A DNA stretch of 64,000 bases from Acidimicrobiales bacterium (GCA_035316325.1 DATHJB010000212.1:1-64000), one strand, 5' to 3'. Counted from the stretch's first letter, positions 28,325 through 44,661 are shown. The notes: a model not told the origin generated them from the sequence alone. Translations and numbers: made by a program.

Positions 28325-30163
28325 TCACAAGTCGGAGGCGGTCACGTAGCAGTGGTCGCTGGCCTGCATGTCGCAGTACGTGGCGTCGGTGGCCTGCCGG
28401 GCACCCGAGGAGACGTGGTAGATCGCGTCGATCTGGTCCGAGGCCGGCGGGCGGTGGGCGCTGCTCGTCGGCCGGGTGGTGAGCGACCGGTAGCCCTGCT
28501 CCGCGAGCAGCTCCTCGGACGCCGCCCGCCCCAGGTTGAAGTCGCCGGCCAGCACCTTGTCGACGTCGGCCCCGTAGCGCTCGACGGCCCGCCCCATGTA
28601 CTCCACCACCTGCCGGGTGGCCACGGTCGGCCCGCGGCGCGGCGACTCGAGGTGGGTGCTGCAGTACACCCGCCGCTGCTCGCCCAGCCCGCCGACCGCG
28701 CACGCCATGCCCCGGCACTCGTGATGGCGGCGGTCGCAGGGCACGGCGGTCTGGGCGGTGAACTCGTCCCACGTGGCCAGCCGCGGCTCCAGGCCGGCGT
28801 CGACCATCACCACGTTGCCGAACTGCTTCACGGCCCCCGAGCAGTTGGTGGTGGTGCCCAGGGCGACGTAACCGGCCGCGGCCCGATACCCGGGCAGCCG
28901 GCCCGTGAGGTGGGCGACGTCGTCGTAGCAGGCCTCGTTGAGCGACAGCGCCTCGGGCCGCTCGTGTTCGACGAACCAGGCCACGACGTCACGGCTGTGC
29001 GCCCGCACCCCGTCGCCGCAGGCGGCCGAGCAGAGGTTGTAGTGGTGCACGCCCTGCGGTGGCGACGCCATCGGGGCCGGGGCGACCGCCGCGGCCCCGG
29101 TCGCGGCTCGGGCCGCCGGCACGAGCTCCACCGCGCAGGACGTGACGCCACCGCCTTCCCGGTAGCTGGTGGCGCACCAGAACAGTGACCCGCCGGAGTC
29201 GTCGATCTGGAGGGCGGTCGGCATGCGGCCGACCTCGACGCCGGGAACGACCAGGCCCGTGGCGTGCGGCCCGTCGCCGCCGGCCACCAGCAGCGACCCG
29301 TCGTCGCCCACCGAGTAGCGGCTGCCGGTGCTGGTCGTGGCCCAGGCGAGCGACGCCGGCCGCCCGGCACCCACCGACTGCCAGCCACCCTCACCCGGCG
29401 ACCACCGGGCCACGGTGGAGTCACCCCCACGGGTCTCGTAGCCGCCCGGGGCGCAGTGGGCGTTGCGCCCGTAGGGCATCGACGTGTCGCCGCCCTCGAC
29501 GGGCGCCCACGCCGAGCCGTCCCACCGCAGCAGCCGCAACGAGAACGTGGTCGACGTGGGCGACCCGTTGCCGTGCGGCGCGGCCGTGGCGTCGGCGGTC
29601 AGGTCGTAGAGGTCGCCGTCGACCAGGCACGGCTCGCCGCCGGTCCATGGCACCTCGTCGAGGATCCGCCCCCGCACGACGTCGACCTGGGTGAGCAGCC
29701 CGTCGGCGTTGACCCACAGCGTGTCGCCCTCGGCGCCGACGAGCGCGGCGCCGTCGAGCCCGGACGGCCACCCCGACGACTGCCGCAACGTGACCGTCCG
29801 CTCGTGGCGGCCCCGGCCGTCGAGCACGGTGACCTCGGCGATCCGGTGCTCGCACCCCGACCCGTCGCAGCGGATGCCGCCGAACACCACCCGCCCGGCC
29901 ACCGAGGTGCCGAACGGCGTCGAGTACCGGGGGAGCGAGGCGGCCCGGCTGACCGACCCGTCGCCCGCCACCCGCACCAGGTCGCCGGTGCGGTCGAGCA
30001 CGAAGCCCACGCCGTCGCCGGCGACGACCACCGCCAGCGCCCGCTCGCGGGCGAGGTCGGGCGCGCTGCCGGGGGCCAGCGTGTCGATGGGGACCGACAC
30101 GAGCAGCGCTCCCAGGCCGTAGGCGGTGAGCAGGCGCACGCGCAGGAACCTGCGGAATCCCAC
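28325..30163 (-). CDS. Secreted two-domain protein: propeller-like N-half plus endonuclease/exonuclease/phosphatase domain
   Basis: 612 aa, ATG 30163. There is a signal peptide or anchor at 1-33. Residues about 35-350 are repetitive beta strands with aromatic-rich WxxG turns (RWDGSAWAPVEGGD, RWSPGEGGWQSVGAG), as in propellers. Residues about 370-612 carry EEP superfamily motifs: HHYNLCSAAC, a Glu in LSLNEACYDD, GNVVMV, CSTHLESP, LAGDFNLGR (catalytic Asp-x-Asn), QIDAIYH, and the final SDHCYV (Asp-His). The enzyme should cleave a phosphodiester or phosphomonoester outside the cell (DNase or phosphatase). Four or more Cys residues in the EEP part could form disulfides. Confidence 0.78.
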   Translation of the reverse strand: MGFRRFLRVRLLTAYGLGALLVSVPIDTLAPGSAPDLARERALAVVVAGDGVGFVLDRTGDLVRVAGDGSVSRAASLPRYSTPFGTSVAGRVVFGGIRCDGSGCEHRIAEVTVLDGRGRHERTVTLRQSSGWPSGLDGAALVGAEGDTLWVNADGLLTQVDVVRGRILDEVPWTGGEPCLVDGDLYDLTADATAAPHGNGSPTSTTFSLRLLRWDGSAWAPVEGGDTSMPYGRNAHCAPGGYETRGGDSTVARWSPGEGGWQSVGAGRPASLAWATTSTGSRYSVGDDGSLLVAGGDGPHATGLVVPGVEVGRMPTALQIDDSGGSLFWCATSYREGGGVTSCAVELVPAARAATGAAAVAPAPMASPPQGVHHYNLCSAACGDGVRAHSRDVVAWFVEHERPEALSLNEACYDDVAHLTGRLPGYRAAAGYVALGTTTNCSGAVKQFGNVVMVDAGLEPRLATWDEFTAQTAVPCDRRHHECRGMACAVGGLGEQRRVYCSTHLESPRRGPTVATRQVVEYMGRAVERYGADVDKVLAGDFNLGRAASEELLAEQGYRSLTTRPTSSAHRPPASDQIDAIYHVSSGARQATDATYCDMQASDHCYVTASDL

Positions 30164-30267
30164 ACCCGGAGGGGACCACGCGCCGGTGGCGCCTCCCTGG
30201 CCGCTCCGTGACCACCGCCCGACGCCGAGGCGAACCTCTCGCCAACTCGGTCACCGCCACCCGACGG

Positions 30268-32667
30268 TCAGAGCACGCCGGACGCTCGGGCGGCGCGGAC
30301 GGCGGCGGCGCGGGAGCCGACGCCGAGCTTGCGGTACAGCGAGCGGACGTGGGTCTTCAGGGTGTTGGTGGTGATGTCGAGCTGGGTGGCGATCTCGGGG
30401 TTGGTCAGGTCGCTGGGCAGGTAGCGGAGCACGCTCAGCTCGCGGCGGCTCAGTGTCAGGTCGGTCCCGCCGGCCAACGACAGGTGCCGCTGCAGGCCGT
30501 CCAGGGAGACGACCAGCGGCAGCAGCTGCCGGCGGGTCTCGGCCAGGCTGCGCAGGACGGGCAGCAGCTCGGGGGCCTCTTCGACGAACACGTGGCAGAA
30601 CCCCTCGCGGGCCCCGGCGCTGGCGGCGTCGAGCAGCCGCCGGTCGCGGACGTCGTGGTCGGCGCGCAGCCCGGCGATCCGGGCCGCCCGCAGGTCGGTG
30701 ACCAGCCGGGTGCGCAGGTCCGGCACGGGGACGGCGTCGAGCAGGTCGGTCGCCGCCCGCAGGTCCCGCTGGGCCAGCGCCCGGGTGACGTCGAGCAGCT
30801 GCCGGTCGATCCCGGGACGCAGCCCGTCGATCAACGGCGAGGCGCCGTTGACGTCGCCCACCTCGATCCGCAGCTGCGCTTCCAGCACGTCGAGCACCGG
30901 TCGCACCGACTTGGGCACCGGCTGTTCCCCGTCTCTCCGCCGCAGCTCCTCGACGACGGCGAGTCCTGCGGCGGGACCACCCCGGGCCGCCCGCACCCGG
31001 GCCAGCTCCACCCGGGCGACCACCACCCCGGTCAGCCAGCCGCGCTCCCCGTACCCGTCGACGGTCGCCAGCAGCAGCGCCTCGGCCTCGCCGAACGCAC
31101 CCTGCTCGACCAGCACCCGCGCCAGTGCCACCCGCGCCTCGTTTCCGGCGGCGTGGAAGGGCACCCCGAGCGCCTCGCCCGTACCGAGGGACTGCCGGGC
31201 CAGGCTCTCGGCCCGGAGGAGCGCACCCTGGCGCTCGGCGCTCCGCGCCCGCAGCGCCGGCACGAGCAGCCCCCGGATCAGCTCCGACGAGCGGGTGTCG
31301 TCGAGGAGCGCGCAGTAGGCCTCGGCCTCGTCGTGCTGGTCGAGCTGCACGTGGTTGATCGCCAGGTTGGCCACCAGCCGACGACGCAGGGGCGGGTTGG
31401 CGTCGCCGAGCCGGGCCAGCGCTTCGTTGCCGACCTCGATCGTCCGCACGGGGTCGTCGTCGAACGAGTGCCAGATCGAGCGAGCGGCCGCCAGCAGGCC
31501 GCGCGCCGGGTCGTCGCGGGGTGCGTGCCGCAGGGCGCGGTCGGCCCGGTCCATCCAGTCGGCCGCGTGGTCGATCCAGCCGGTGCGGGTGAGCACCGCG
31601 GCGACGTAGACCATGCGGGTGGGCGTCTCGGCGATCCAACCCGGCGGGAACACCGCGCTCCAGTCGACCCCGCGGCCGATGCCGTCGCTGGTGGTCATGA
31701 ACTGGACGTCGGCCGCCAGCAGGTCGAGGGCGTGCTCACCGTCGCCGGCGGCGACGAGGTGGCCGACGGCGTCGGGTCTGTCCTGGTCGAGGAACCAGCC
31801 GGCGGCCCGGTGGTGCAGGGTGCGCACCTCGGCCCCGCCCCGCTCCCGCAGCCGGGCCCGCAGCAGCTCGGCGAACAGGGGCTGGTAGCGGAACCACACC
31901 TCCTCGTCGTCGAGCGGCAGCAGGAACAGGTTGGCCCGGCGCACCCGGTCGAGCAGCCGCCCGGCGTCGGCCGACCCGGTGACGACGCGGCACAGGTCGG
32001 CGGTGAAGCGGGCCAGCACCGACGTGGTGGTCAGGAACTCGCGGACGTCGTCGGGCTGGTCGGCCAGGAGCTCGTCGAGCAGCGCCCGGCCGGCCGGCGT
32101 GGCGACGGACCCGGTGGCCGGGGTGGCGGTCAGGAGCCGGAGCCCCGCCGCCCAGCCCTCGGAGCGCTCGGCCAGGTCGTGCAGCTCGGCCCGGTCGGCA
32201 GGGGAGAGCGGGTCGTGGGCGAACGCCGCCGCCACCTCGTCGGGCCGGAAGCGCAGGTCGTCCGGCCCGATCTCCGCCAGCAGGCCCTGCGCCCGCCAGC
32301 GCGCGATGGGCAGGTCGAGCCGGCGGCGGGTGGTGACCAGCAGCCGCACGTGGCGCGGCACCGCCTCCACCAGGTGCCCCAGCGCCTCCAGCGCCGCCGG
32401 GTCGTCGACCAGCTGCATGTCCTCGATCACGACGACGGTGGTCTCGTCGGGTGAGCCGATGCGGTCGGCTCGGGGGAGCCCGCCGGCCGTGAGGTGGTGG
32501 CCGTCGACCCAGGTGACCCGGCACTCGCCCGTCGCCGCGAACTGCTCGACGGCCACGGTCTTGCCGTAGCCGAAGGGCGCCTGGACGATCGTCAGCGTGC
32601 TCGCCGTGGCCCGGCGGATCAGGTCGACCACTCGCTGACGCCGCACGAGCAGCATCTCGTGGTGCAT
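30268..32667 (-). CDS. LAL1: MalT-like LuxR-family ATPase regulator
   Basis: 799 aa, ATG 32667. The N-terminal STAND ATPase has Walker A with Lys36 (APFGYGKT) and Walker B TTVVVIEDMQLVDD. A long alpha-helical MalT-type middle follows. The C-terminal LuxR HTH is residues about 735-799 (LSRRELSVLRYLPSDLTNPE, then TNTLKTHVRSLYRKLGVGSR). It is most similar to LAL2: both begin MHH and share WS.VFP..W and (D/T)HA..W. The 30-bp triple-hexamer element (32821-32850) lies 153 nt upstream, pointing toward the gene, with a 15-bp hairpin between. It is one of four such regulators in 11 kb. Effector unknown. Confidence 0.9.
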   Translation of the reverse strand: MHHEMLLVRRQRVVDLIRRATASTLTIVQAPFGYGKTVAVEQFAATGECRVTWVDGHHLTAGGLPRADRIGSPDETTVVVIEDMQLVDDPAALEALGHLVEAVPRHVRLLVTTRRRLDLPIARWRAQGLLAEIGPDDLRFRPDEVAAAFAHDPLSPADRAELHDLAERSEGWAAGLRLLTATPATGSVATPAGRALLDELLADQPDDVREFLTTTSVLARFTADLCRVVTGSADAGRLLDRVRRANLFLLPLDDEEVWFRYQPLFAELLRARLRERGGAEVRTLHHRAAGWFLDQDRPDAVGHLVAAGDGEHALDLLAADVQFMTTSDGIGRGVDWSAVFPPGWIAETPTRMVYVAAVLTRTGWIDHAADWMDRADRALRHAPRDDPARGLLAAARSIWHSFDDDPVRTIEVGNEALARLGDANPPLRRRLVANLAINHVQLDQHDEAEAYCALLDDTRSSELIRGLLVPALRARSAERQGALLRAESLARQSLGTGEALGVPFHAAGNEARVALARVLVEQGAFGEAEALLLATVDGYGERGWLTGVVVARVELARVRAARGGPAAGLAVVEELRRRDGEQPVPKSVRPVLDVLEAQLRIEVGDVNGASPLIDGLRPGIDRQLLDVTRALAQRDLRAATDLLDAVPVPDLRTRLVTDLRAARIAGLRADHDVRDRRLLDAASAGAREGFCHVFVEEAPELLPVLRSLAETRRQLLPLVVSLDGLQRHLSLAGGTDLTLSRRELSVLRYLPSDLTNPEIATQLDITTNTLKTHVRSLYRKLGVGSRAAAVRAARASGVL

Positions 32668-32740
32668 CAGCCACCAAGCGTAGCTATCGGCCCCTTCCGT
32701 CAGGCAGGTCGCATCACCGACGGTGGCAGAAGAGGGAGGG

Positions 32741-32791
32741 AGGGCTCGGCGTCGGAGCTGGGGGGAGGGTTGGGGCCCGACGCCGAGCCCT
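32741..32791 (-). promoter_or_regulatory. Long hairpin in the LAL1 leader
   Basis: AGGGCTCGGCGTCGG (32741-32755) and CCGACGCCGAGCCCT (32777-32791) form a perfect 15-bp stem with a 21-nt loop. It sits 29 nt downstream of the composite element and 73 nt before the LAL1 start. The flank CGCAGAGGGCTCGGCGTCG resembles the equivalent place before the 85-aa ORF at 41279 (CGCAAAGCGGCTGGGCGTCG). It could be a 5'-leader structure, or a LAL2 terminator lacking a T-run. Confidence 0.7.
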
Positions 32792-32820
32792 CTGCGCTGA
32801 GATCAGTGTGGGGGCACGAC

Positions 32821-32850
32821 GGGTGAGAGGGCGTCACTCGCAGAGGGTGA
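32821..32850 (-). promoter_or_regulatory. Triple-hexamer composite element E1 (LAL1)
   Basis: On the + strand: GGGTGA-N7-TCACTC-N5-GGGTGA. Read toward LAL1 this is TCACCC-N5-GAGTGA-N7-TCACCC, with one mismatch from the common pattern. It lies between LAL2 (stop 32865) and LAL1. Confidence 0.85.
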
Positions 32851-32864
32851 TCGTGCGGACGTCG

Positions 32865-35363
32865 CTACAACAGCGCCGTGCGGCGGGCCGCGGTCACGGC
32901 GTCGGGCCGCGACTGCACGCCCAGCTTGCGATACAGCGACCGCACGTGGCTCTTGACCGTGTTGGCGGAGACGCCCAGCTCGCCGGCGATCTCGTGGTGG
33001 GTCATACCGCTGGGCAGGTAGCGCAGCACGGCGATCTCCCGTTCCGACAGCCGGGTGCGGCTCGGCCGGCCCCGCCGGGCGGCCACGGCGTCGACCCGGG
33101 CCACCAGCCGGTGCAGCTCGTGGTGGCGGACGGTCAGGCGGCGCAGCGCCGGCAGCAGCTGGCCGGCTTCGGACAGGAAGGTGGCGCCGAAGCCCTCGGT
33201 GCTGCCGACTTGAGCAGCCAGAAGCAGGTGCCGGTCGCGCTCGGCTCCGTCGCCGCGGGCCGCGGCCAGGCGGGCGGCGCACAGGTCGCGGACCAGGCGG
33301 TCGCGGGGGTTCGCCGGCTCCAGCTCGGCGAGCAGGGTGGTCGCCGTGGCGCGGTCGTCGCGGGTCAGTGCCAGCCGCAGCGCCAGCAGGTCGCGCTGGA
33401 TGCCGGGCAGCACGCCGCGGAGGTGAGCCGCGGCCCCGTCGACGTCGCCGTCGGCCAGGCGGAGCCGCGCCTCGTGCCGGTCGAGGGTGGCGTAGAGCTC
33501 CGGGCCGACGGGGTGATCCCGCAGGCTGCGCCGGATCTCGGCGAGCATCCCGACGCCCGTGCACGGGTCCCAGCGGGCGGCCCGGATCTGCGCGAGCTCG
33601 GCACGGTAGAGGGCGGCCAGGGCGGGCCAGCCCAGGCTGTCGGCCATCTCGGCGGCCCGGCCCACGAGGCGCTCCGCCTCGTCGAACTCGCCGCGCTCGG
33701 TCAGCACGCCGGCCAGGGTCACCTGGGCGTCACGCATGCCGGGGTGGTCGGGGATGCCCATCGCCTCGGCGGTCCGCAGCACGCGGCGGGCCTGGTCCTC
33801 GGCGGTGCGGAGCTGCCCCCGGCGCAGCGCCTGGCGGGCCCGGAAGGCCGGTGCCATCAGGCTGCGCATGATCTCCGACGAGCGCGGCACGTCGAGCTCG
33901 TCGGTGAGGGCGGCGGCGCCGTCGACGTCGTCGAGCAGCATCCGGGTGGTGATCATGACCACCCGCACCCGCTCGTGGAAGGCCGTGGCCTCGGGCGGCA
34001 GGGGCAGCTCGAGCGCCTGTGCGCCCAGCTCCTCGGCGCGTCGGGCGTGCAGGGTCACCCCGTTCCACAGGGCCTGGGCCGACAGCAGCAGGCCCCGGGT
34101 GGGGTGGTCGTCGGGCGCCCCGGCGAGCGCCTCCTCGGCCCGGGTGAGCCACTCGGTGGCGTGGTCGAACCGGCCGCTGCGACCCACCAGGGCGGCGAAG
34201 TGCAGCATCCGCTCCGGCGACTCCTCCACCCAGGCGGCGGGGAACACCGTGCTCCAGTCGGTGCCGACGAGGTGACCCCACCCGGCGTCGTAGGGGTCGT
34301 CGGCGACCAGCGCGAACGCCTCGCCCAGGTCGTCCGCGTTTCCGGCCAGCTGGTGCACGGCGCCCCGGGAGTCGTGCCGGGCCGCGAACCACCCGGCCGC
34401 GCTGCGGCGCAGCGACCGGGCCGTGCCGGGGTGCCGGCGGTCGAGCTCGGCCCGCAGCAGCTCGGCGAAGAGGCGCCGGTAGCGGAACCAGGCGCGGTCG
34501 TCGTCGAGGGAAACCACGGACAGGCCGGCCTCGTCGGCTTCGCGCAGCATCCGGCCGGCGTCGGGACGACCGGTCACCACCCGGCACAGGTCGGCCGAGA
34601 ACCGGCCCAGCACGGACGTGGTGAGCAGGAAGTCCTTCATCTCGGGCGACTGGGCGCCCAGCGTGCGGTGGGTGAGGTCGCGGGCCGCGTCACCGTCGAG
34701 GTCGCAGCCGGCGGGTGAGGTGGCCAGGAGCTGGACGCCCGCGGGCCAGCCCTCGGCCCGGTCGGTGAGGGCGGCGACGACCTCGTCGCGCACGTCGGGG
34801 ACGCCCAGCTCGTTGAGCAGCCGGGCGGTGTCGTCGGGCCCGAAGCGCAGGTCGTCGGCGTCGAGCTCGGCGACGCGGCCCTGGGTCCGCCACCTTCCTG
34901 TGGGAAGGTGCAGGTCGCGCTGGGTGGCAACGACGAGGCGCAGGGTGGGTGGTAGCAGCTCCACGAACCGGGCGAGCTGGCGGGCGAGGGTCGGGTCGAG
35001 GACCCCGTCGAGTCCGTCGAGCACCATGACCGTGGTGTCGGGGAGGGCCGCCGCCAGGTCGCACAGCCGGTCGGCCACCAGGTGGTCGTCCGGTCCCGCC
35101 TCACCCTGGAGGGCCCGGGCGATCTCACCCCAGAAGTCGGCGGGGTGAGGTGAGGCCCACACCGTGGGCAGGCCGGCGGTGTCGGCGAACTGGCGCAGCG
35201 CCTCGGTCTTGCCGTAGCCCGCCGGCGCCCGAACCAGGGTGAGCGGCCGGGTGGTGGCCGCACGCAGGTGTTCCACCACGTCAGGCCGCTTCAGGAGCAG
35301 CTCACCAGGGTCACCCGATGGAGGTGATTGAGACTCACCCTGTTGCTCGCCACCGTGATGCAT
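32865..35363 (-). CDS. LAL2: MalT-like LuxR-family ATPase regulator
   Basis: 832 aa from ATG 35363 (MHHGGEQQ), preceded by GGGAG; the frame is open to 35495, but that would run into the divergent LAL3 start region. The ATPase has Lys52 (RAPAGYGKTEAL) and Walker B TVMVLDGLDGVLD. The helical sensor region contains WSTVFPAAWVEESPERMLHF. The C-terminal LuxR HTH has LSEREIAVLRYLPSGMTHHE and ANTVKSHVRSLYRKLGVQSR. Composite element E2 overlaps its codons 8-18, an unusual place for an operator. It sits head-to-head with LAL3, 88 nt apart. Confidence 0.9.
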   Translation of the reverse strand: MHHGGEQQGESQSPPSGDPGELLLKRPDVVEHLRAATTRPLTLVRAPAGYGKTEALRQFADTAGLPTVWASPHPADFWGEIARALQGEAGPDDHLVADRLCDLAAALPDTTVMVLDGLDGVLDPTLARQLARFVELLPPTLRLVVATQRDLHLPTGRWRTQGRVAELDADDLRFGPDDTARLLNELGVPDVRDEVVAALTDRAEGWPAGVQLLATSPAGCDLDGDAARDLTHRTLGAQSPEMKDFLLTTSVLGRFSADLCRVVTGRPDAGRMLREADEAGLSVVSLDDDRAWFRYRRLFAELLRAELDRRHPGTARSLRRSAAGWFAARHDSRGAVHQLAGNADDLGEAFALVADDPYDAGWGHLVGTDWSTVFPAAWVEESPERMLHFAALVGRSGRFDHATEWLTRAEEALAGAPDDHPTRGLLLSAQALWNGVTLHARRAEELGAQALELPLPPEATAFHERVRVVMITTRMLLDDVDGAAALTDELDVPRSSEIMRSLMAPAFRARQALRRGQLRTAEDQARRVLRTAEAMGIPDHPGMRDAQVTLAGVLTERGEFDEAERLVGRAAEMADSLGWPALAALYRAELAQIRAARWDPCTGVGMLAEIRRSLRDHPVGPELYATLDRHEARLRLADGDVDGAAAHLRGVLPGIQRDLLALRLALTRDDRATATTLLAELEPANPRDRLVRDLCAARLAAARGDGAERDRHLLLAAQVGSTEGFGATFLSEAGQLLPALRRLTVRHHELHRLVARVDAVAARRGRPSRTRLSEREIAVLRYLPSGMTHHEIAGELGVSANTVKSHVRSLYRKLGVQSRPDAVTAARRTALL
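35311..35340 (+). promoter_or_regulatory. Triple-hexamer composite element E2 (LAL3, inside the LAL2 5' end)
   Basis: TCACCC-N5-AGGTGA-N7-TCACCC on the + strand, one mismatch in the middle hexamer. It is 111 nt before the LAL3 start and oriented toward it. It lies inside the beginning of the LAL2 coding region, so protein bound here could also block LAL2 transcription. Confidence 0.85.
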
Positions 35364-35383
35364 CGATAGGTCGCTCCCAGCTC

Positions 35384-35406
35384 CGTTCCACCCGCCGGTG
35401 TGAACG
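35384..35406 (+). promoter_or_regulatory. Hairpin in the LAL2/LAL3 divergent region
   Basis: CGTTCCACC (35384-35392) and GGTGTGAACG (35397-35406) can pair over 9 bp with a single bulged T and a 4-nt loop, 43 nt downstream of element E2 and 45 nt before the LAL3 start. It is shorter than the hairpins of the other three leaders. Confidence 0.4.
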
Positions 35407-35451
35407 AACAACGGTGCGATCGTGATCGGCAGAGTATCGGGGAGAGGATCG

Positions 35452-38040
35452 ATGGCCACGGTGAACGCGATCGAGAGCAGCTGGCGAGTGGTCACCCCGG
35501 TCGGCCCGGAGCTGCCCGCCCTGCCCGAGCGCTACATCGCCCGCCCCCGGCTCGAGCAGCGCCTGACCGAAGCCATCGCCCGGTCCAGGGTGGTGGCGAT
35601 GGTGGCGCCGGCGGTGTCGGGCAAGACCACCCTCGTCGCCGGGTGGAGCGCCACCGAGGCGGCGCCGCCGCTCGCCTACGTGGCCCTCGACTCCTACGAC
35701 AACGAGCTCACCCGCTTCTGCAGCAAGCTCGTCGGCGGGCTCCAGCACGTCCACCCCGGCTTCGGCGCCTCGGCCCTCTCGGAGCTGGCCGCCACCAGCG
35801 ACGCCCGGCGCTTCCTCGACATGCTGCTCCCCGAGCTGACCGGGCTCGGCCGAACCGTCGTGATGCTCGACGGCCTGGAGGCGGTGACCGGCCCCGACGT
35901 CAACACGGTGATCGGCGACATCCTCGTCGGCCTGCCCGACCCGCTGCGGGTGGTCCTCTCCAGCCGGTCGGAGCCGCTGCTGCGGCTGGGCCTGCTGCGG
36001 GCTCGGGGCCAGCTGGCGGAGATCCCCGCCACCGACCTGGCCTTCGACGTCCGGGAGACCGCCTCGTTCCTGGCCACCTTCGACACCGTGCCGTTCGGCC
36101 CCGACGAGACCCTGGCCCTGCACGAGCGCACCGAGGGCTGGACCGGCGGCGTGAAGCTGGCCGCCCTGGCCGCCGCCCAGCACGCCGACCCGCTGGCGGC
36201 GATCCGCGGCTTCACCGGCAGCAACCGCTACGTGGCCGACCTGCTCGGCCGCGAGGTGCTCGAGCCGCAGCCACCCGAGACCCGCGACTTCCTGGAGGTC
36301 ACCTCGGTGCTGCGGGAGCTCGACGCCGAGCTGTGCGACCTGGTCACCCAGGGGACCGGCAGCGGGGCGATGCTCGAGAGCCTGGAGCGCGCCGGCATGT
36401 TCCTCGAAGCCGTCGACGACGAGCGCACGCGCTTCCGCTACGCACCCCTGTTCCGGGAGTTCCTGCAGCGGGAGCTGCACGTCCTCGACCCCGAGCGCCA
36501 GCGGGCCGCCCACCGGACCGCGGCCGTCGAGCTGGAGGAGCGCGGCGACGTGACCGCCGCCATCGACCACTACGTCGCCGGCGGGCAGGAGGGCGACGGC
36601 GTGCGGCTGGTGCTGCAGCACGGGCAGCGGTACGCCGCCGACGGCGAGGTGGAGGTGCTGCGGTCGTGGCTCACCGTCCTCCCGGACCACGCGCTCACCG
36701 GCGACGTCCGCCGGATGCTGGAGATCGGGCGGCTGTGCCTGATCCCGGGCCTGCGCGACGAGGCCGGCATGTGGCTGGAGCGGGCCCGCCTGCGGCTCGA
36801 CGAGTCCGACGACGCCGAGCTGGTGGCCCGCCACGCCCTGTTCGTCGGCTACGCCCAGGCCCAGCTGGGCGACCTGGAGGGGGCGACCAGCCAGGGCCAC
36901 CGCGTGCTGGCCAAGGCGTCGGCGCTGCAAGGCCACGAGCAGGACTGGTTGCGTGCCCGCGCCCACCACCTCATCGCTGCCGCCTGTGCGAGCCTCGACG
37001 AGTTCGAGGCCGCCCGCCGTCATCGGGCCGCCGCCCCCAACGAGACCCGCGGCGAGGTGCCCACCGACTCCTACAGCGCCTGGCTCTGCTACCGCGAGGG
37101 CCGTCTCGACCGGGCGGTCGAGCACGCCAACCGCATCCTCGGCGAGAACGACTGGCCCTGGCAGTGGGCCACCGTGCTGATCGCCCGGGCCGGCGTCCTG
37201 CGGGAGCGCAACCAGCTCGACGAGGCCGAGGAGGACCTGGGCCGGGCCATCGAGCTGGCCCGGCGTTGGGACCGGCCCCGGGCCACGGTGTTCGGGTCGA
37301 TCGAGCAGGCCCAGGTCCACTACGCCCGGGGGCGCTCGACCGCCGCGTTCGAGGCGCTCGCCGCGGCCCGTCCCGAGGTGCACGGCGCCTACATCGGCCA
37401 GCTGCTCGACGCCACCGAGGCAGCGCTCTGGCTGCGCGAGGGCGACGTCGAGCGCAGCCTCACCATCCGCCACGAGCTGCCCGAAACCCGGCTCACCGCC
37501 CTGCTCGACATCCGCACGGCCATCGTCGAGGGCCGCCTGGAGCAGGCGCAGGCACTGGTCGCCGCCAACGAGGGCGGGGCCCGCTCCGTCCACGACCGCA
37601 TCTCCATGCGGCTGCTCCAGGCCCGGACCCTGCTGGCCCGCGACCCGGCTGCAGCGGGCGACGCCCTCCGCTGGGCGATCGACATCGGGCGCCGGGAGCG
37701 CTTCGTGCAGGTCTACGTGGAGGACCTCGGTCCGCTGCACGGCCTCCTGCGCCAACTGGCCGCCACGGGCGACGACCCCTACGTCTTCGGCCTGCTGGCG
37801 GCCATGGCCCAGTCCGACGAGGACGTGCCCGACCACGCCCACATCTCGGAGTCGCTGAGCTCGCGTGAGCAGGTGGTGCTGCGGTACCTGCCCACCAACC
37901 TCTCCAACAAGCGCATCGCCGCCGAGCTGCACATGTCGGTCAACACGCTGAAGACCCACCTCAAGAGCGTCTACCGGAAGCTCGGTGTGGGCTCGCGCGA
38001 CGAGGCCGTCGCCCACGCCCGCCACCTGCGACTTCTGTGA
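35452..38040 (+). CDS. LAL3: MalT-like LuxR-family ATPase regulator
   Basis: 862 aa, ATG 35452 with GGAGAGG at 35441-35447. Walker A Lys58 (APAVSGKTTLVAGW), Walker B TVVMLDGLEAV. The middle is a long TPR-like helical domain. The C-terminal HTH has SSREQVVLRYLPTNLSNKRI and VNTLKTHLKSVYRKLGVGSR. It is the close paralogue of LAL4: same P-loop position, same GSNRYVADLL/GSSRYVAELL and LERAGMFLEA/LERSGMFVEA, and nearly the same recognition helix. Element E2 lies 111 nt upstream. LAL3 and LAL4 have AVSGK rather than the GYGK of LAL1 and LAL2, marking two subfamilies. Confidence 0.92.
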   Translation: MATVNAIESSWRVVTPVGPELPALPERYIARPRLEQRLTEAIARSRVVAMVAPAVSGKTTLVAGWSATEAAPPLAYVALDSYDNELTRFCSKLVGGLQHVHPGFGASALSELAATSDARRFLDMLLPELTGLGRTVVMLDGLEAVTGPDVNTVIGDILVGLPDPLRVVLSSRSEPLLRLGLLRARGQLAEIPATDLAFDVRETASFLATFDTVPFGPDETLALHERTEGWTGGVKLAALAAAQHADPLAAIRGFTGSNRYVADLLGREVLEPQPPETRDFLEVTSVLRELDAELCDLVTQGTGSGAMLESLERAGMFLEAVDDERTRFRYAPLFREFLQRELHVLDPERQRAAHRTAAVELEERGDVTAAIDHYVAGGQEGDGVRLVLQHGQRYAADGEVEVLRSWLTVLPDHALTGDVRRMLEIGRLCLIPGLRDEAGMWLERARLRLDESDDAELVARHALFVGYAQAQLGDLEGATSQGHRVLAKASALQGHEQDWLRARAHHLIAAACASLDEFEAARRHRAAAPNETRGEVPTDSYSAWLCYREGRLDRAVEHANRILGENDWPWQWATVLIARAGVLRERNQLDEAEEDLGRAIELARRWDRPRATVFGSIEQAQVHYARGRSTAAFEALAAARPEVHGAYIGQLLDATEAALWLREGDVERSLTIRHELPETRLTALLDIRTAIVEGRLEQAQALVAANEGGARSVHDRISMRLLQARTLLARDPAAAGDALRWAIDIGRRERFVQVYVEDLGPLHGLLRQLAATGDDPYVFGLLAAMAQSDEDVPDHAHISESLSSREQVVLRYLPTNLSNKRIAAELHMSVNTLKTHLKSVYRKLGVGSRDEAVAHARHLRLL

Positions 38041-38061
38041 TGACCTGGGCATATGTCCAAG

Positions 38062-38091
38062 TCACCCCGGCAGGGTGACGGGGATTCACCC
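38062..38091 (+). promoter_or_regulatory. Triple-hexamer composite element E3 (LAL4)
   Basis: TCACCC-N5-GGGTGA-N7-TCACCC, a perfect match in all three hexamers, on the + strand toward LAL4. It lies 21 nt after the LAL3 stop and 244 nt before the LAL4 start. Confidence 0.88.
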
Positions 38092-38180
38092 CCGGGCTCG
38101 CCATGCTGGGGACGCTTCCGAGGGCCGGCGGTGTGGATCCCCCATGGTGCCCGGCGGAATCTCGGCGGCAATGCGTAGGC

Positions 38181-38260
38181 GGCGGCGGTCCGTCACCCCG
38201 GTTGGCCAGCGGCGGCACGACCGGCGTCGACGGACCGCTGCCACTACTCGGTAGCGTTTT
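38181..38260 (+). promoter_or_regulatory. Long hairpin plus mini-hairpin/T-run in the LAL4 leader
   Basis: GGCGGCGGTCCGTC (38181-38194) pairs with GACGGACCGCTGCC (38229-38242): 13 Watson-Crick pairs and one G-U, 34-nt loop. It is followed by CTAC-TCG-GTAG (38244-38254) and CG-TTTT (38255-38260). This may be a LAL3 terminator or an attenuator-like leader for LAL4. Confidence 0.55.
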
Positions 38261-38335
38261 GTGAGGTCAGGATCATCGTCGTTCCGCGGGGCGGCGCCGG
38301 CACTCGTGGTGGGCACGACGAGCGGAGGTGTCACC

Positions 38336-40942
38336 GTGGCCGGCTGGGATTGGGTAGATACGAACTGGCGACTCGTGGAGCCCGGCGCACCAGTGGTGCC
38401 GAGCCTGCCCCGGTACTACGTGCCACGGCCGCGGCTGCACCGCCTCCTGGACCACGCGCTGGAGGACGCCAAGGTCACGCTGCTCCGGGCGCCCGCGGTG
38501 TCGGGCAAGAGCACGCTGATCAGCGGGTGGCACGCCGAGGGCGGCCGGCCGGCGATGGCGTACGTGTCGCTCGAACGCCTCGACAACGACCCCACCCGCT
38601 TCTGGGACCGCGTGTTCCACGAGCTCCGGCTGGGGGTCGGCCGCCGCAACGGCGACCTCGTCGACATCGACACCGGCACGCACGCCCGGCAGCTCCTCCA
38701 GCTGCACCTCCCCGAACTGGTCGGCCGCGAGCGGTCGGTGCTCGTGCTCGACCGGGCCGACGTGCTCACCGACCCCGACACCTGCCAGGTGCTCGGCGAG
38801 TTCCTGCTCGACCTGCCGGCCTCGCTGCGGGTGATCCTGTCCGGTCGGGCGGAGCCGGCGCCGGCGCTGCGGGCCGGGCTGCTGCGGGCCCGGGGCCAGA
38901 TGACCGAGATCCACGCCGACGACCTCGCCTTCACGCGTGACGAGATGGTGGAGTTCTTCACCCACTTCGCCGACCTCGACCTGGGCGCCGACCATGTCGA
39001 CGCCCTCTACGAGCGGACCGAGGGCTGGATCGGCGGCGTCACCCTCGCCGGCCTCGCCCTCCTGCGCCACGTCGACACCGGCGCGCACGTCCACCACCTG
39101 ACCGGCAGCAGCCGCTACGTCGCCGAGCTGCTGGCGGCCGAGGTGTTCGACCCGCAACCGCCCGAGGTGCGCGAGTTCATGCTGGCCACCTCGGTGCTCG
39201 ACGTCATGGACGGTCCGCTCGCCGACGTCGTCTCCGGCGTCACCGGCGGGGCGGCCACGCTCGACAAGCTGGAGCGCTCCGGCATGTTCGTCGAGGCGAT
39301 GGACGAGCAGCGGACGTCGTTCCGCTACCGGCCGCTGTTCCAGGAGTTCCTGCGCCATCGCCTGCGGCTACTCGACCCCGACCGCGAGGTGGCGGCCCAC
39401 CTCGCCGCGGCCCAGGAGCTCGAGAGCCGCGGCGACATCGGGCCGGCGATCTCGCACTTCGTCGGCGCCGGCGAGTCCGACCACGCGATCCGCCTGCTGC
39501 TGTCCCACGGCGAGCGCGTCGCTGCCGCCGGCAACGTCGACGAGCTGCGCAGCTGGCTGGCGGCGCTCCCCGACCGGGCCCTCACGGGTGACGTCTACCA
39601 GCTGCTGCAGGTGTGCGAGCTGTGCGCGATGGTCGGCATGCGCGAGGAGGTCGTCCTGTGGCTCGAACGGGCCCGCTGGCGCCTCGAGGGCAGCGACGAC
39701 CAGCTCATGAGCGCTCTACGCGCCCTGATCTCGGGGTACGCCAACGCCGGCTACGGGAGGTTCGAGGCCGCGCTGGTCGACGGCCACCGCGTGCTGTTGC
39801 TCGAGACGGGCGGCGGCCCCGCCGATGCCGAGCTGCGCATGCGCGCCCACCACCTCCTGGTCGGCATCTACGCCGCGCTCGACCAGCTCGACGAGGCCCG
39901 CCACCATCGGGCCGAGGCCCCGTCCGATGCGACGGGCAACGTGCTGTCGCACGCCCTCAGCTCGTGGCTGTCGTTCCGGGAGGGTCGCCTCGAGCACGCG
40001 GTGACCTACGCCGAGGAGCTGATCGCCCAGAGCCGCAAGCCGTGGGAGGACGCCATGCCGCTGGTCACCCGCGGGGCGGTGCGGCGGGAGCGCAACCAAC
40101 TGGTCGAGGCCGACGCCGACCTGCTCGCCGGGGTCGAGGCCGGTCGCCGCTGGGCCCGCACCAGCATCGAGCTGTTGGGCTCGATCGAGCTGGCCCTGCT
40201 GCGGTTCGCCCAGCGCCGCCAGTCGGAGGCCTTCGCCATCCTCACCGACGCCCGGCCCAAGGCCCACGGCTCCTACCTGCTGCAGCGGGTGGAGCAGACC
40301 GAGGCGTCCCTGTGGCTGCGGGCCGGCGACGTCGAGCGCAGCCTCTTCGGCCGGGAGGAGCTACCCGACGGCCGGCTCACCGCCGAGCTGGACGTCCGGC
40401 TGGCGCTGGCGGTCGGGCCGACGGACGAGGTGCCCGAGCGGCTCGCCGTGTTCGAGGCCGGCATGCAGTCGCTGCAGGAGCGCATCACCGCCCAGCTGCT
40501 GCGGGCCCGGCTGGCGCTCGCCTGGGACGACGACACCAAGGCCGAGCACCACCTGCGCACCGCCATCGAGTGGGCCCGGCGGGAGCAGTTCGTGCAGCTG
40601 TTCGCCGAGGACCTGCCGGCGTTGGAGCCCGTGCTGCGCGGGCTGGTGAGCGGCTACGACGACGCCTATCCCTTCAGCCTGCTGGCGGCGATCGCCGAGC
40701 GGGACCCGGTGCTGCCGGTGAACGGGTCCGTGGTGATGGTGGGGGACTACGAGTCGTTGAGCGACCGGGAGCAGATCGTGCTCCGCTACCTGCCGACCGC
40801 CCTGTCCAACAAGCGGATCGCCGCCGAGCTGCACATGTCGGTCAACACGCTCAAGACCCACCTCAAGAGCATCTACCGCAAGCTCGGTGCCGGCTCACGG
40901 GGCGAGTCCGTGGCCCACGCCCGTGAGCTGCATTTGCTTTGA
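38336..40942 (+). CDS. LAL4: MalT-like LuxR-family ATPase regulator
   Basis: 868 aa from GTG 38336, chosen because GGAGG (38324-38328) lies 7 nt before it. Walker A Lys58 (APAVSGKSTLISGW), Walker B SVLVLDRADVL. The helical middle aligns with LAL3 throughout. The C-terminal HTH has SDREQIVLRYLPTALSNKRI and VNTLKTHLKSIYRKLGAGSR, almost identical to LAL3. The gene follows element E3 and a long structured leader of 295 nt. It is convergent with the 85-aa ORF. LAL3 and LAL4 are a tandem duplication. Confidence 0.92.
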   Translation: MAGWDWVDTNWRLVEPGAPVVPSLPRYYVPRPRLHRLLDHALEDAKVTLLRAPAVSGKSTLISGWHAEGGRPAMAYVSLERLDNDPTRFWDRVFHELRLGVGRRNGDLVDIDTGTHARQLLQLHLPELVGRERSVLVLDRADVLTDPDTCQVLGEFLLDLPASLRVILSGRAEPAPALRAGLLRARGQMTEIHADDLAFTRDEMVEFFTHFADLDLGADHVDALYERTEGWIGGVTLAGLALLRHVDTGAHVHHLTGSSRYVAELLAAEVFDPQPPEVREFMLATSVLDVMDGPLADVVSGVTGGAATLDKLERSGMFVEAMDEQRTSFRYRPLFQEFLRHRLRLLDPDREVAAHLAAAQELESRGDIGPAISHFVGAGESDHAIRLLLSHGERVAAAGNVDELRSWLAALPDRALTGDVYQLLQVCELCAMVGMREEVVLWLERARWRLEGSDDQLMSALRALISGYANAGYGRFEAALVDGHRVLLLETGGGPADAELRMRAHHLLVGIYAALDQLDEARHHRAEAPSDATGNVLSHALSSWLSFREGRLEHAVTYAEELIAQSRKPWEDAMPLVTRGAVRRERNQLVEADADLLAGVEAGRRWARTSIELLGSIELALLRFAQRRQSEAFAILTDARPKAHGSYLLQRVEQTEASLWLRAGDVERSLFGREELPDGRLTAELDVRLALAVGPTDEVPERLAVFEAGMQSLQERITAQLLRARLALAWDDDTKAEHHLRTAIEWARREQFVQLFAEDLPALEPVLRGLVSGYDDAYPFSLLAAIAERDPVLPVNGSVVMVGDYESLSDREQIVLRYLPTALSNKRIAAELHMSVNTLKTHLKSIYRKLGAGSRGESVAHARELHLL

Positions 40943-40949
40943 CAGCGGC

Positions 40950-40965
40950 GGCGGCCCCGGCCGCC
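40950..40965. terminator. Short GC-rich hairpin after LAL4
   Basis: GGCGGC and GCCGCC form a 6-bp stem with loop CCCG, 8 nt past the LAL4 stop and 57 nt from the convergent 85-aa ORF. There is no T-run. Confidence 0.35.
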
Positions 40966-41021
40966 CGCCACCGCTTGGGGCGGCGGCGGGGAGGTCGGTA
41001 TGGGCTGTAACCGGTCAGTGG

Positions 41022-41279
41022 TCAGTAGATCGTGCTGCGGTCGTCGAGGACGACGGCCGCCCGGTGCACCAGCTTTCCGGCGTGCCCGATGCGTCCGGCC
41101 GTCGCGGAATCGAGCTCGAGCATCGCCGTCCAGGTGTCCCGCAGCTCACGCTCGAGTCGGTTCAGTCGGCTCGACAGGCGGGGGAGGTCCGCTGCGGGCT
41201 CGGCGACGCGGAGATGGCGCCGGCTCTTGCGGGTGCGTCCTGACGACGCAGGCACTTCGAGGGGCTCCGCCGCTGACAT
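41022..41279 (-). CDS. 85-aa hypothetical protein under element E4
   Basis: ATG 41279 with GGAGG about 8 nt upstream, a strong ribosome site. The N-terminal 30 residues are basic (SSGRTRKSRRHLR). Residues 31-65 form an amphipathic helix (LSSRLNRLERELRDTWTAML), and the rest is mixed. No family recognised. Its leader copies the LAL1 layout: element E4 110 nt upstream in the same orientation, a 14-bp hairpin between, and a similar sequence at the hairpin foot. It is therefore probably an output or partner of the LAL circuit. Confidence 0.65.
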   Translation of the reverse strand: MSAAEPLEVPASSGRTRKSRRHLRVAEPAADLPRLSSRLNRLERELRDTWTAMLELDSATAGRIGHAGKLVHRAAVVLDDRSTIY

Positions 41280-41309
41280 GGGACAAACCTCCAGGGGGTG
41301 TGGAGTTGG

Positions 41310-41356
41310 GGCTGGGCGTCGCCATCGAGGAACAGGCAGCGAGGCGACGCCCAGCC
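41310..41356 (-). promoter_or_regulatory. Long hairpin in the leader of the 85-aa ORF
   Basis: GGCTGGGCGTCGCC (41310-41323) and GGCGACGCCCAGCC (41343-41356) form a perfect 14-bp stem with a 19-nt loop, 30 nt before the start at 41279 and 33 nt downstream of element E4. Confidence 0.75.
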
Positions 41357-41389
41357 GCTTTGCGTTGCATCACACGGTCGCAACGCATC

Positions 41390-41419
41390 GGGTGAGCGGC
41401 AATCACCCGGGTGGGGTGA
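41390..41419 (-). promoter_or_regulatory. Triple-hexamer composite element E4 (85-aa ORF)
   Basis: On the + strand GGGTGA-N7-TCACCC-N5-GGGTGA, a perfect match in all three hexamers. Read on the minus strand it points toward the 85-aa ORF, like the other elements toward their genes. It lies 13 nt after the end of the 58-aa membrane ORF. Confidence 0.88.
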
Positions 41420-41432
41420 AAGCCGAATTGCC

Positions 41433-41609
41433 TCAGGAGGCAGCCAGCGCGTCCCAGAAGGCCGGGAACGCGAACGCAGCGAGGCCAGCCCCGACGAGCG
41501 AGACCTTCCCCCACGCATAGCCGACTGCCGACAGGACGAACAGCACCACTGCTGCTCCGTAGAACAGCATCTTGACTGTGGGATCCATAGCGGCAACTGC
41601 AAACAACAT
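41433..41609 (-). CDS. Small membrane protein, 58 aa
   Basis: ATG 41609 with AAAGGAC about 8 nt upstream. The sequence is almost entirely hydrophobic: a helix at about 13-31 (KMLFYGAAVVLFVLSAVGYA) and a second at about 36-54 (SLVGAGLAAFAFPAFWDAL). Such two-helix miniproteins are common in Actinomycetota, without known function. It is next to element E4 and divergent from the peptidase gene at 41726. Base composition upstream (AACAACATCTTTGTG) is less GC-rich than the neighbourhood. Confidence 0.65.
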   Translation of the reverse strand: MLFAVAAMDPTVKMLFYGAAVVLFVLSAVGYAWGKVSLVGAGLAAFAFPAFWDALAAS

Positions 41610-41725
41610 CTTTGTGTCCTTTCGCCTTGTAACTCCGCACAGCGATTTACCCGCTGCTCCCCAATCCATCCGGTGCGTCTACGCTCCATGGGTTCATCCC
41701 GCATCCCGTCGTCTCTGGGGAGATC

Positions 41726-43909
41726 GTGCGTTCACAAGCAGTCGTCGTGGCTTTGCTCACCGTGGGCCTGGGTGTCCCCCTGGCGGCGTCGCCGGCCGCA
41801 GCCGAGGTGGCGGTGCCCGCCGCGCCGGCCCAGGAGGACGGCCTCGAGACCCGCACGAAGGCCACCTACGTGGTCGATCCGGCGGCCGCCGCCATCCGGG
41901 TGACCGTCGAGGTGACGCTCGCCAACCAGATCCCCGACCGGAACCGCAACGGGGTGATCGAGCAGGCCTACTTCTCCGAGATCGGCGTGCCGGTGCTCAC
42001 CGAGGCCGCCAACTTCGTCGCCGCCGGGGGCGCCGGTCCGCTGACGGTGACCGCCCAGGACATCGGCAACCCCTACGTGCGCTCGGCGCTGGTCGACCTC
42101 GAGCCGAACCTCTTCTACGGGCAGAGCCAGACGGTGAAGCTCACCTACGACCTCCCCAACCAGCGGCCCCGGTCCCCGGGCGTGTCGCGGGCCAACGACG
42201 CCTTCGTGGCCTTCCCGGCGTTCACGTTCGGCGACGCCGGGCTCAGCAGCGTCGAGGTGCGGCTGCCGAAGCGCTACGAGGTCGAGGTGGTGGGCGCCGA
42301 GCTGGAGGAGACCACCCAGGGCGACCAGAAGATCCTCTCCGCCCAGAGCATCGAGGACCCCGACGGCTTCATCGCCTTCGTGGTGGGCACCGACGAGGCG
42401 AAGCTCGTCAGCAAGCCGGCCGACACCGACGGCGCCGAGGTGGTGGTGCGCGCCTGGCCCGACGACGCCGAGTGGGCCGACTTCGCCGCCAAGCAGGTCG
42501 CCGACGCCAAGCCCGTTCTGGAGGAGCTCGTCGGCCTGCCGTGGCCCCGCGACGACGAGCTGGCGATCGTCGAGTCCGCCAGCCCCTACGCCTACGGGTA
42601 CGCCGGCTGGTACGACGAGGCCGACCACGCGATCAGCGTGGGTGACGAGCTGGACCCGCGGGTGATGGTGCACGAGCTGAGCCACGTGTGGTTCAACTCG
42701 CGGCTGTTCGCCGACCGCTGGGTGGCCGAGGGCTTCGCCGAGGAGTACGCCACCACGGCGCTGGAGGAGCTGGACCAGCCCCAGGACGGCCCCGCTGCCC
42801 CCGACCGGCGGGCCGCGGGCGCGGTCGCCCTCAACGACTGGTCGGACCCGTTCCTGCTCGACGAGACCAGCGAGGCCACGGAGCTGTACGGCTACGCGGC
42901 CTCGTGGTACATCGTCGACCAGATCGCCCAGGAGGTCGGGGTCGAGAAGCTGCGCGGCGTGCTCGACGCCGTCGCCGACCAGCGCATCACCTACACCGGC
43001 GACCCGGACCCCGAGTCGTTCGTGGGGGTCGCCGACTGGCAGCGGCTGCTCGACCTGCTGGAGGGCCAGGCCGGGTCGGCCAAGGCCCCGGAGCTGTGGG
43101 ACACGTTCGTGGTCAACGACGAGCAGCGGGCCGAGCTCGCCGCCCGGACGACCGCGCGCACCACCTACGACGAGCTGGTGGCGAGCGGCGACGGCTGGAC
43201 CCCGCCGCTGGAGGTGCGCCGGGCGATGGCCGAGTGGAACTTCGGCGCCCTCGACGACGCGGTCGCCGAGGCGGAGGACGTGCTCGCCGTGCGCGACGAC
43301 ATCGAGGCCGCGCTCGCCGGGCTCGACGTCGAGGACCTGGGGTTGGAGGAGGCCTACGAGACCGCCGAGGGGACGCAGACCGTGCTGCCCGTCGCCCGGG
43401 AAACCCTCGACGCCGCCGAGGCCTACGCCGCCGCCGACGGGCAGATGGACGAGGGCGTCGGCTTCCTCGGCGAGGTCGGGCTGCTGTGGTCGGGCACCGA
43501 CGGCCGGCTCGACACCGCCCGGCGCGAGCTGGAGGCGGGCGATCCGGGGGCGTCGCTGCGGGCCAGCGCCGCGGTCGAGCAGAGCCTCGACGACGCGGCC
43601 CGCGACGGTGCCCTGCGGGTGGGCGGAGTGGTGCTGGTGGGCGGCGGCGGGCTGTTCGCCCTGTGGCGGATCCGCCGCTGGCGGCGTCGGCGCCGCAAGG
43701 GCAAGGTGGAGCGGGCCGAGCGCTCGGCCGAGGCGAAGCTGGCGGCCCTGCCGTCCCTCCCGCAGGTGGAGCCCCTCTCGTCGCTGACGGGCAAGCCACG
43801 GACGCCGCCTCCGTTGCCGCCGATGCCCCCGACCGGCCCCACGGCCCGGACGTCACCTCCAGCCGAGGACCCCGACACCCCGGCTCCTCGCCGCTTCACC
43901 GAGCTCTGA
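41726..43909 (+). CDS. Membrane-anchored HExxH metallopeptidase
   Basis: 727 aa from GTG 41726 with GGGGAGA at 41717-41723. Signal peptide 1-25. A beta-rich N-terminal domain precedes the catalytic helix HELSH (316-320) and WVAEGFAEEYA (Glu335 or Glu339 as third zinc ligand), a gluzincin arrangement like M1/peptidase-MA enzymes. A helical C-terminal part (residues 480-630) leads to one transmembrane helix (VGGVVLVGGGGLFALW), a basic RIRRWRRRRRKGK stop-transfer and a proline-rich cytoplasmic tail. It probably processes cell-surface peptides. Confidence 0.8.
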   Translation: MRSQAVVVALLTVGLGVPLAASPAAAEVAVPAAPAQEDGLETRTKATYVVDPAAAAIRVTVEVTLANQIPDRNRNGVIEQAYFSEIGVPVLTEAANFVAAGGAGPLTVTAQDIGNPYVRSALVDLEPNLFYGQSQTVKLTYDLPNQRPRSPGVSRANDAFVAFPAFTFGDAGLSSVEVRLPKRYEVEVVGAELEETTQGDQKILSAQSIEDPDGFIAFVVGTDEAKLVSKPADTDGAEVVVRAWPDDAEWADFAAKQVADAKPVLEELVGLPWPRDDELAIVESASPYAYGYAGWYDEADHAISVGDELDPRVMVHELSHVWFNSRLFADRWVAEGFAEEYATTALEELDQPQDGPAAPDRRAAGAVALNDWSDPFLLDETSEATELYGYAASWYIVDQIAQEVGVEKLRGVLDAVADQRITYTGDPDPESFVGVADWQRLLDLLEGQAGSAKAPELWDTFVVNDEQRAELAARTTARTTYDELVASGDGWTPPLEVRRAMAEWNFGALDDAVAEAEDVLAVRDDIEAALAGLDVEDLGLEEAYETAEGTQTVLPVARETLDAAEAYAAADGQMDEGVGFLGEVGLLWSGTDGRLDTARRELEAGDPGASLRASAAVEQSLDDAARDGALRVGGVVLVGGGGLFALWRIRRWRRRRRKGKVERAERSAEAKLAALPSLPQVEPLSSLTGKPRTPPPLPPMPPTGPTARTSPPAEDPDTPAPRRFTEL

Positions 43910-43918
43910 GCCCGAGGC

Positions 43919-44269
43919 ATGCTGCGCCCACCGTGGCCGCGGAGGCCGAGGTACCTAGCCGCTGCCAAGAAGGTTCCGCCCAGGTACCAGCCGTGGCTGG
44001 TCGACCAGATCGGGACTCGATCTCCCCCGCAGTTCGGCTTGTACCGTGCCGGCTACCGGATGACCTATGTGGTTTTCGTCGCCGTCCTGGCCGTGCTCTG
44101 GGACGCGGTGATCCTCGGCGCCGCCCTGGTGCTGGTGGCCGTGATCATCACCGTTGTCCGGGCCGCATCGCCGAGCTACAGCGAGCGATCGAGGGCGGCG
44201 TTGGCGAGGTACGACGGACTGCCCATGGCGCCCTACGGCCCCGTACGTCACTCCGGGGAGCTGAGGTAG
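43919..44269 (+). CDS. Small hypothetical membrane protein
   Basis: 116 aa from ATG 43919, 9 nt after the peptidase stop; ribosome site weak. The N-terminal 47 residues are basic and aromatic (RYLAAAKKVPPRYQPWLVDQ), one or two transmembrane helices span 48-83, and a polar tail follows. No family recognised. Its end overlaps the convergent DUF5655 gene by 22 nt. Internal starts such as ATG 44060 are possible. Confidence 0.5.
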   Translation: MLRPPWPRRPRYLAAAKKVPPRYQPWLVDQIGTRSPPQFGLYRAGYRMTYVVFVAVLAVLWDAVILGAALVLVAVIITVVRAASPSYSERSRAALARYDGLPMAPYGPVRHSGELR

Positions 44270-44661
44270 GCCTCGGTCACCCAGTCCCGGACGTCGGCGT
44301 CGACGTCGTCGGCGGTGCGCAGGTTCACGGTGTGCCAGTAGTGGGCGCCGGCCGGCTCGACCTTGCGGGCGATCCGGCGGCTCTCGACGCGGTGGGGGAG
44401 CGAGAAGCCGAGGGCGACCCACCGGGTCATCGGGGTGAGGACGGCGAAGGTCTGGGACCGCTTCAGGTAGATGCCGACCGACAGCGGCTCCACGTGCACG
44501 TCGCCGACGGAGTCGAGGTGGGCCATCACCGCCTCGAAGATCGGTCGCTCCCGCTCGGGGCCGGTGGAGAAGTACTCCTCCAGCGTCATCGCCGGGGTGC
44601 ACTCGTGGCCCTGCCCGGGGCGGCGGAACCGCCGTTGGCACCTCGGGCAGGTCCAGGCCAT
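44248..44661 (-). CDS. DUF5655 protein with N-terminal zinc-ribbon-like motif
   Basis: 137 aa, ATG 44661. The N-terminus MAWTCPRCQRRFRRPGQGHEC has CPxC-x(12)-H-x-C, a likely zinc site. Residues 25-137 match DUF5655: LEEYFSTGPERERPIFEAVM, VHVEPLSVGIYLKRSQTFAV, and a WVALGFSLPHRVESRRI half ending in VTEAYLSSPE. The domain is common in Actinomycetota as a small alpha/beta protein of unknown function. It lies 14 nt downstream of the Lrp gene on the same strand. Confidence 0.8.
   Translation of the reverse strand: MAWTCPRCQRRFRRPGQGHECTPAMTLEEYFSTGPERERPIFEAVMAHLDSVGDVHVEPLSVGIYLKRSQTFAVLTPMTRWVALGFSLPHRVESRRIARKVEPAGAHYWHTVNLRTADDVDADVRDWVTEAYLSSPE

Follow-up and report, generated by a model that had tools for sequence, protein, structure and literature searches.

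Four repeated elements in a cluster of MalT-like LAL genes are predicted to control promoters as part of a switch found across actinobacteria

The window, the whole stretch of 64,000 nt analysed here, lies on contig C212 of an Acidimicrobiales genome, and it carries a cluster of four LAL genes followed by a small ORF:

30268..32667, minus strand: LAL1, 799 aa, MalT-like STAND regulator with LuxR/GerE HTH (Pfam GerE 2.9e-16, TPR_MalT 4.8e-5)
32865..35363, minus strand: LAL2, 832 aa (GerE 2.9e-17, TPR_MalT 6.9e-12; start from Shine-Dalgarno and homology to LAL1)
35452..38040, plus strand: LAL3, 862 aa (50% identity to LAL4)
38336..40942, plus strand: LAL4, 868 aa (GTG start, Shine-Dalgarno GGAGGT)
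41022..41279, minus strand: 85-aa ORF (Shine-Dalgarno GGAGGT)

A GerE/LuxR HTH was identified at the C-terminus of LAL1-LAL4 with E values from 6e-14 to 3e-17. TPR_MalT was matched in all four at E values from 4.8e-5 to 6.9e-12, the Pfam gathering score being passed by LAL2 alone. The N-terminal nucleotide-binding domain has the P-loop GK[ST], which is GKT or GKS in LAL1-4, and its G and K are invariant in the alignment. The sequence-only reading had assigned these proteins to the MalT/LAL type, and this is borne out by a profile built from LAL1-4 and related LALs, which matches E. coli MalT in PDB (8bob residues 15-415, E 2e-74). With the NCBIfam MalT equivalog, LAL1-4 score 183-275 bits, below the curated cut-off of 537 bits. 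LAL1-4 are MalT-like, not MalT.

The closest pairs are LAL1/LAL2 with 44% identity and LAL3/LAL4 with 50%, and identity among the four HTH domains is 47-79%. The recognition helix NT[LV]K[TS]H[VL][RK]S[LVI]YRKL is present in all four and is near TTIKTHIRNLYQKL of E. coli MalT. The genome carries at least six LALs, with HTH domains 40-79% identical. LAL2 starts at ATG 35363 behind GGGAG.

The same 30-bp pattern, TCACCC-N5-GGGTGA-N7-TCACCC (here called the triple), occurs four times in the window:

32821..32850, minus strand: site 1, triple before LAL1; dyad 32850-32834 with one change (GAGTGA), third hexamer 32826-32821
35311..35340, plus strand: site 2, triple before LAL3; one change (AGGTGA); inside the LAL2 N-terminal coding region
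38062..38091, plus strand: site 3, triple before LAL4; perfect
41390..41419, minus strand: site 4, triple before the 85-aa ORF; perfect

The sequence-only reading had described four copies at these coordinates, with the N5 and N7 spacer lengths exact in each and the hexamers perfect in 10 of 12 cases and one change in the other 2, and all of this was reproduced. Allowing up to three mismatches, we counted four triple elements in the window and 0.14 on average in shuffled windows. Each copy was also said to face its downstream gene in the same orientation, at 153 nt (LAL1), 111 nt (LAL3), 244 nt (LAL4) and 110 nt (85-aa ORF), and this holds. Because LAL2 starts at ATG 35363, site 2 falls within its 5' coding region; LAL2 has no triple element of its own. 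When the whole genome (6.37 Mb) was scanned at no more than one mismatch, the four window elements were the only triples, the reversed control gave 0, and there was no multitude of matches lacking a relation to LAL genes. Among 60 relatives, the triple at one mismatch occurred only in G001 and G003, which belong to the same family, and in G023.

As one motif the triple stood only in part: the four 30-bp copies are real, but the general element is just the first 17 bp, the dyad TCACCC-N5-GGGTGA. It occurs 13 times exactly in this genome, with 0 in the reversed control, and 41 times at no more than one mismatch, versus 6 in the control. Among these 41, 11 are no more than 10 kb away from the three LAL loci (p = 4e-13), and contigs C155 and C220 have several dyads each together with further LAL genes. 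Genes adjoining dyads belong to PLDc_N/SHOCT, SHOCT, DUF1269, DUF6325, SfLAP, DUF308, ion channel, MS-channel helix, Rv1476-like plus PspA, and FGE-sulfatase; on C45, two SulP-like transporters and an arylsulfatase adjoin dyads according to sequence inspection, with no profile support. One-mismatch dyads within genes (C186, C208, C211, C214, C69 and others) were put down to probable chance. Since the dyad precedes genes at distant loci too, the regulatory circuit reaches beyond the cluster; the dedicated circuit proposed earlier thus gives way to a dyad found at about ten further loci here, two of them with other LAL genes, and throughout the phylum.

Proteins of 57-94 aa recur next to LAL genes and dyads, some of them apparently interrelated, and those tested gave no Pfam match. 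Small ORFs near LAL genes or dyads are located as follows:

L024:6808-7014 and 9742-9960
L025:1178-1402
L032:15820-16101
L264:3718-3888
L265:3716-3892

Genes for a NarL-type response regulator and a histidine kinase (L030:4860-6508) adjoin the C155 LAL gene. The gene 35 nt downstream of an exact dyad at L071:6780 comes after genes like those of KdpD/KdpE-type sensor kinase and response regulator.

A phylum sample of 80 LAL loci (1.55 Mb), nearly all from actinobacterial genomes, showed the same preference. Exact dyads numbered 74 at gap 5, 8 at gap 0 and 0-3 at other gaps up to 14. At gap 5 and no more than one mismatch there were 202 dyads and 1 in the reversed control, and 70 of the 80 loci had at least one. 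Of the 202 dyads, 193 had a gene start no more than 500 nt downstream (median 90 nt), and only 15 were inside genes; gene calls outside the window came from a simple codon-usage caller. Among the families downstream, SHOCT and PLDc_N were each found at 20 of 129 genes, both being outside the top 25 families of 127 control genes, while DUF1269 was found 7 times versus 2 in the controls and DUF7144 13 versus 7. The half-sites in related loci were TCACCC/GGGTGA in 74 cases, mixed in 32 and TCATCC/GGATGA in 4, with 0 in the control, and the mixed forms link the dyad to the TCATCC/GGATGA motif known from Actinoplanes. Separately, the gap-0 palindrome TCACCCGGGTGA is mildly over-represented in the 80 loci, with 8 exact copies and 28 at no more than one mismatch.

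The dyads also keep a fixed distance to a -10-like signal. Numbering the first dyad base as 0 and orienting dyads without third hexamer by the nearest gene, we located A-N3-T in 135 of 193 dyad flanks, 77 of them having it at 40/44 and 58 at 41/45; it was rare at any other offset. Each of the four window sites carries A41 and T45 and then G (CACACTG, CACCGTG, CATGCTG, GACCGTG), which gives these predicted promoter features:

32805..32810, minus strand: site 1 -10-like CACACT(G), A41-N3-T45 register; predicted TSS about 32799
35351..35356, plus strand: site 2 -10-like CACCGT(G); predicted TSS about 35362, opposite the LAL2 start codon
38102..38107, plus strand: site 3 -10-like CATGCT(G); predicted TSS about 38113
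41374..41379, minus strand: site 4 -10-like GACCGT(G); predicted TSS about 41368

For several dyad-linked genes in the window genome, the start lies 35-36 nt past the dyad, a position consistent with leaderless transcription from the predicted TSS.

For the 85-aa ORF, profile searches gave no family, only weak relatives, including one weak paralogue in the genome (C229). Its leader carries, between predicted TSS and start codon (41313-41358, minus strand), a 14-bp perfect inverted repeat GGCTGGGCGTCGCC/GGCGACGCCCAGCC with MFE -43 kcal/mol and z -3.2, and a second small hairpin overlaps part of the Shine-Dalgarno. An Rfam search of positions 30000-44500, the inverted repeat included, gave no match. 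A 78-aa ORF with a hydrophobic segment (41433-41669, minus strand), for which no family was found, immediately precedes site 4 on its strand.

The third hexamer occupies positions 24-29, downstream of the -35 region and upstream of the -10. The sequence-only reading had counted it as an equal part of the motif; instead it is a lineage variant downstream of the -35, present at no more than one mismatch at 3 of the 193 dyads in the LAL loci, and as part of the general operator it was rejected on this count. In the window genome it is exact at all four cluster sites, and the other dyads have at least two mismatches in the orientation of their own gene. The triple is present in 8 of the 396 genomes of the phylum sample. 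In another family, f131, we found it in 33 of 81 genomes, with up to 8 per genome, and the control matched none; several of these triples lie, by sequence inspection, in clusters with long P-loop LAL-like genes.

We collected 74 distinct triples, whose orientation was fixed by the third hexamer alone. A41/T45 was present in 55 of them and A40/T44 alone in 5, whereas the corresponding counts in dyad-only flanks were 56:77 (Fisher p = 1.1e-11, with lineages mixed). Within the window genome, the two registers stood at 4:0 for triples and 3:16 for dyad-only sites (hypergeometric p ~0.004). The mirrored orientation of the 74 triples had no -10 peak, with only 3 at A41/T45. These register counts tie the third hexamer to the promoter and to a 1-bp longer spacing.

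We consider it quite likely that the four elements are promoters of the actinobacterial MalT/LAL type that depend on an activator, with the third box as an extra LAL half-site. The motif, its positions, its association with LAL genes, its spacing rules and its targets are read directly from the DNA, and from them we infer LAL binding, activation, feedback and the role of the third box. An active LAL protein, presumably ATP- and ligand-bound and multimeric, would set its HTH domains on the everted pair TCACCC-N5-GGGTGA. The occupied dyad would overlap the -35 region, RNA polymerase would be recruited by the LAL to the weak -10 (A-N3-T) 24 bp downstream of the dyad, and transcription would begin about 34 nt past the dyad. 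That predicted LAL promoters would be activated rather than repressed is carried over from Actinoplanes. With LAL1, LAL3, LAL4 and the 85-aa gene under dyad control, the cluster would feed back on itself, and LAL2, without a site, may serve as input. A scattered envelope/stress regulon may be a further target of the LALs, or may have operators in common with them. The TCACCC in third place, fixed between -35 and -10 and accompanied by a 1-bp longer spacing, would most likely be an extra LAL half-site that alters the promoter response.

A half-site in this place could block the polymerase. Autorepression, in which the third hexamer is filled at a high LAL level and blocks polymerase at the regulator genes as negative feedback, would agree with its position between -35 and -10 given by the fixed -10 register, and with its confinement to the LAL cluster in the window genome. 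But elsewhere triples precede SfLAP-like, FGE-, peroxiredoxin-, BON- and DUF7144-like effector genes, as judged by sequence inspection, which weakens the third hexamer as a mark of regulator genes only, and we regard autorepression as unlikely. It is possible, if still doubtful, that the triple represents a distinct promoter class with a STAND regulator half-site in a -35/-10 spacer 1 bp longer than in most dyad-only promoters, and acts on promoter geometry or gives a biphasic response, not only through upstream recruitment. MerR-type proteins act on promoter geometry. If the third hexamer were a relic without function, copied along with the LAL genes by promoter duplication, the paralogy of LAL3/LAL4 (50%) and of LAL1/LAL2 (44%) would be expected; yet the N5, N7 and N11 spacers vary from site to site with hexamers and -10 retained, the third hexamer is also at the promoter of the 85-aa ORF, and unrelated families have it in strict register, and such a relic is highly improbable.

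Another regulator, such as the NarL-type response regulator encoded next to the LAL gene of C155, might also bind the dyad, the LAL genes being mere targets. LuxR-type HTHs are common to both kinds of protein and a response regulator gene does adjoin one LAL locus. We take this to be very unlikely, as the dyad goes with LAL loci across the phylum, the half-site is near the MalT core, and a LAL regulator has a deletion and overexpression phenotype in Actinoplanes (PMC7567727). Some one-mismatch dyads within genes are probably chance matches, but for the set as a whole an origin as chance or structural palindromes in GC-rich DNA is refuted by the gap-5 specificity, the zero or near-zero controls, the fixed -10 and the location before genes. 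The activator-dependent LAL promoter is our preferred reading: on the sequence evidence, the four repeated elements are sites for promoter control and belong to a switch found across actinobacteria, operated by large MalT-like regulators that presumably bind them.

LAL regulators are abundant in actinobacteria, and to our knowledge the sites, targets or signals of only a few have been established. Given a dyad with a single spacer, a single position with respect to the -10 and recurrent targets, LAL regulons may become readable from sequence, and these would take in many SHOCT, DUF1269, DUF6325 and DUF7144 genes. The third box poses a testable question, namely what effect a regulator half-site between -35 and -10 has and why the -10 register is fixed. 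The four-LAL cluster with three self-directed sites would be a good system for studying feedback among STAND regulators.

Among known systems, E. coli MalT is, like the LALs here, a STAND ATPase with a C-terminal LuxR-type HTH. GGGTGA had been likened to a MalT box, and rightly, being one base off both the E. coli core GGA(T/G)GA, which is also located at the -35, and the Actinoplanes half-site GGATGA. Overall identity to E. coli MalT is 21-25% for the LALs in this genome, and LAL1-4 are below the MalT equivalog cut-off. Unlike for E. coli MalT, no maltose genes were among the targets seen here, and the site here is an everted 6-5-6 pair. IniR of mycobacteria is likewise a MalT-like STAND regulator, of an envelope-stress operon, but regulates iniBAC only and responds to trehalose; a term search of the text of that paper found no palindrome or inverted repeat (PMC5760070). 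The SARP-LAL regulators of polyene clusters in Streptomyces are LAL-type ATPase regulators as well, but their sites are heptameric direct repeats, unlike the dyad operator here (PMC5930380).

In the open-access literature we found no description of a SHOCT/LAL regulon, of a TCACCC/GGGTGA operator or of a third box with a locked -10 register. The TCACCC/GGGTGA variant, its phylum-wide link with LAL genes and its recurrent targets are apparently new with respect to that literature, and the extra third box at one fixed distance from the predicted transcription start signal looks like an undescribed variant.

The nearest system is that of Actinoplanes sp. SE50/110, where the MalT-type LAL ACSP50_3915 activates genes with TCATCC-N5-GGATGA, as found by deletion and overexpression (Droste et al. 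2020, PMC7567727). Its half-sites TCATCC/GGATGA differ from TCACCC/GGGTGA, the target genes are other than here, with a 51-gene block activated on maltose, and the consulted parts of that report describe no third hexamer (PMC7567727). In both systems a regulator of the LAL/MalT type occurs with palindromic hexamers set 5 nt apart, and targets of unclear function lie near two LAL genes (PMC7567727). In Actinoplanes the distance from the motif's 3' end to mapped TSSs is 34.4 +/- 1.0 nt, and the motif overlaps the -35 (PMC7567727). For the dyads here, the -10-like register predicts a -35 overlap and a TSS about 34 nt downstream, and the gene starts at 35-36 nt agree with this prediction. Judged by sequence, the core dyad is a close variant of the known Actinoplanes MalT operator kind.
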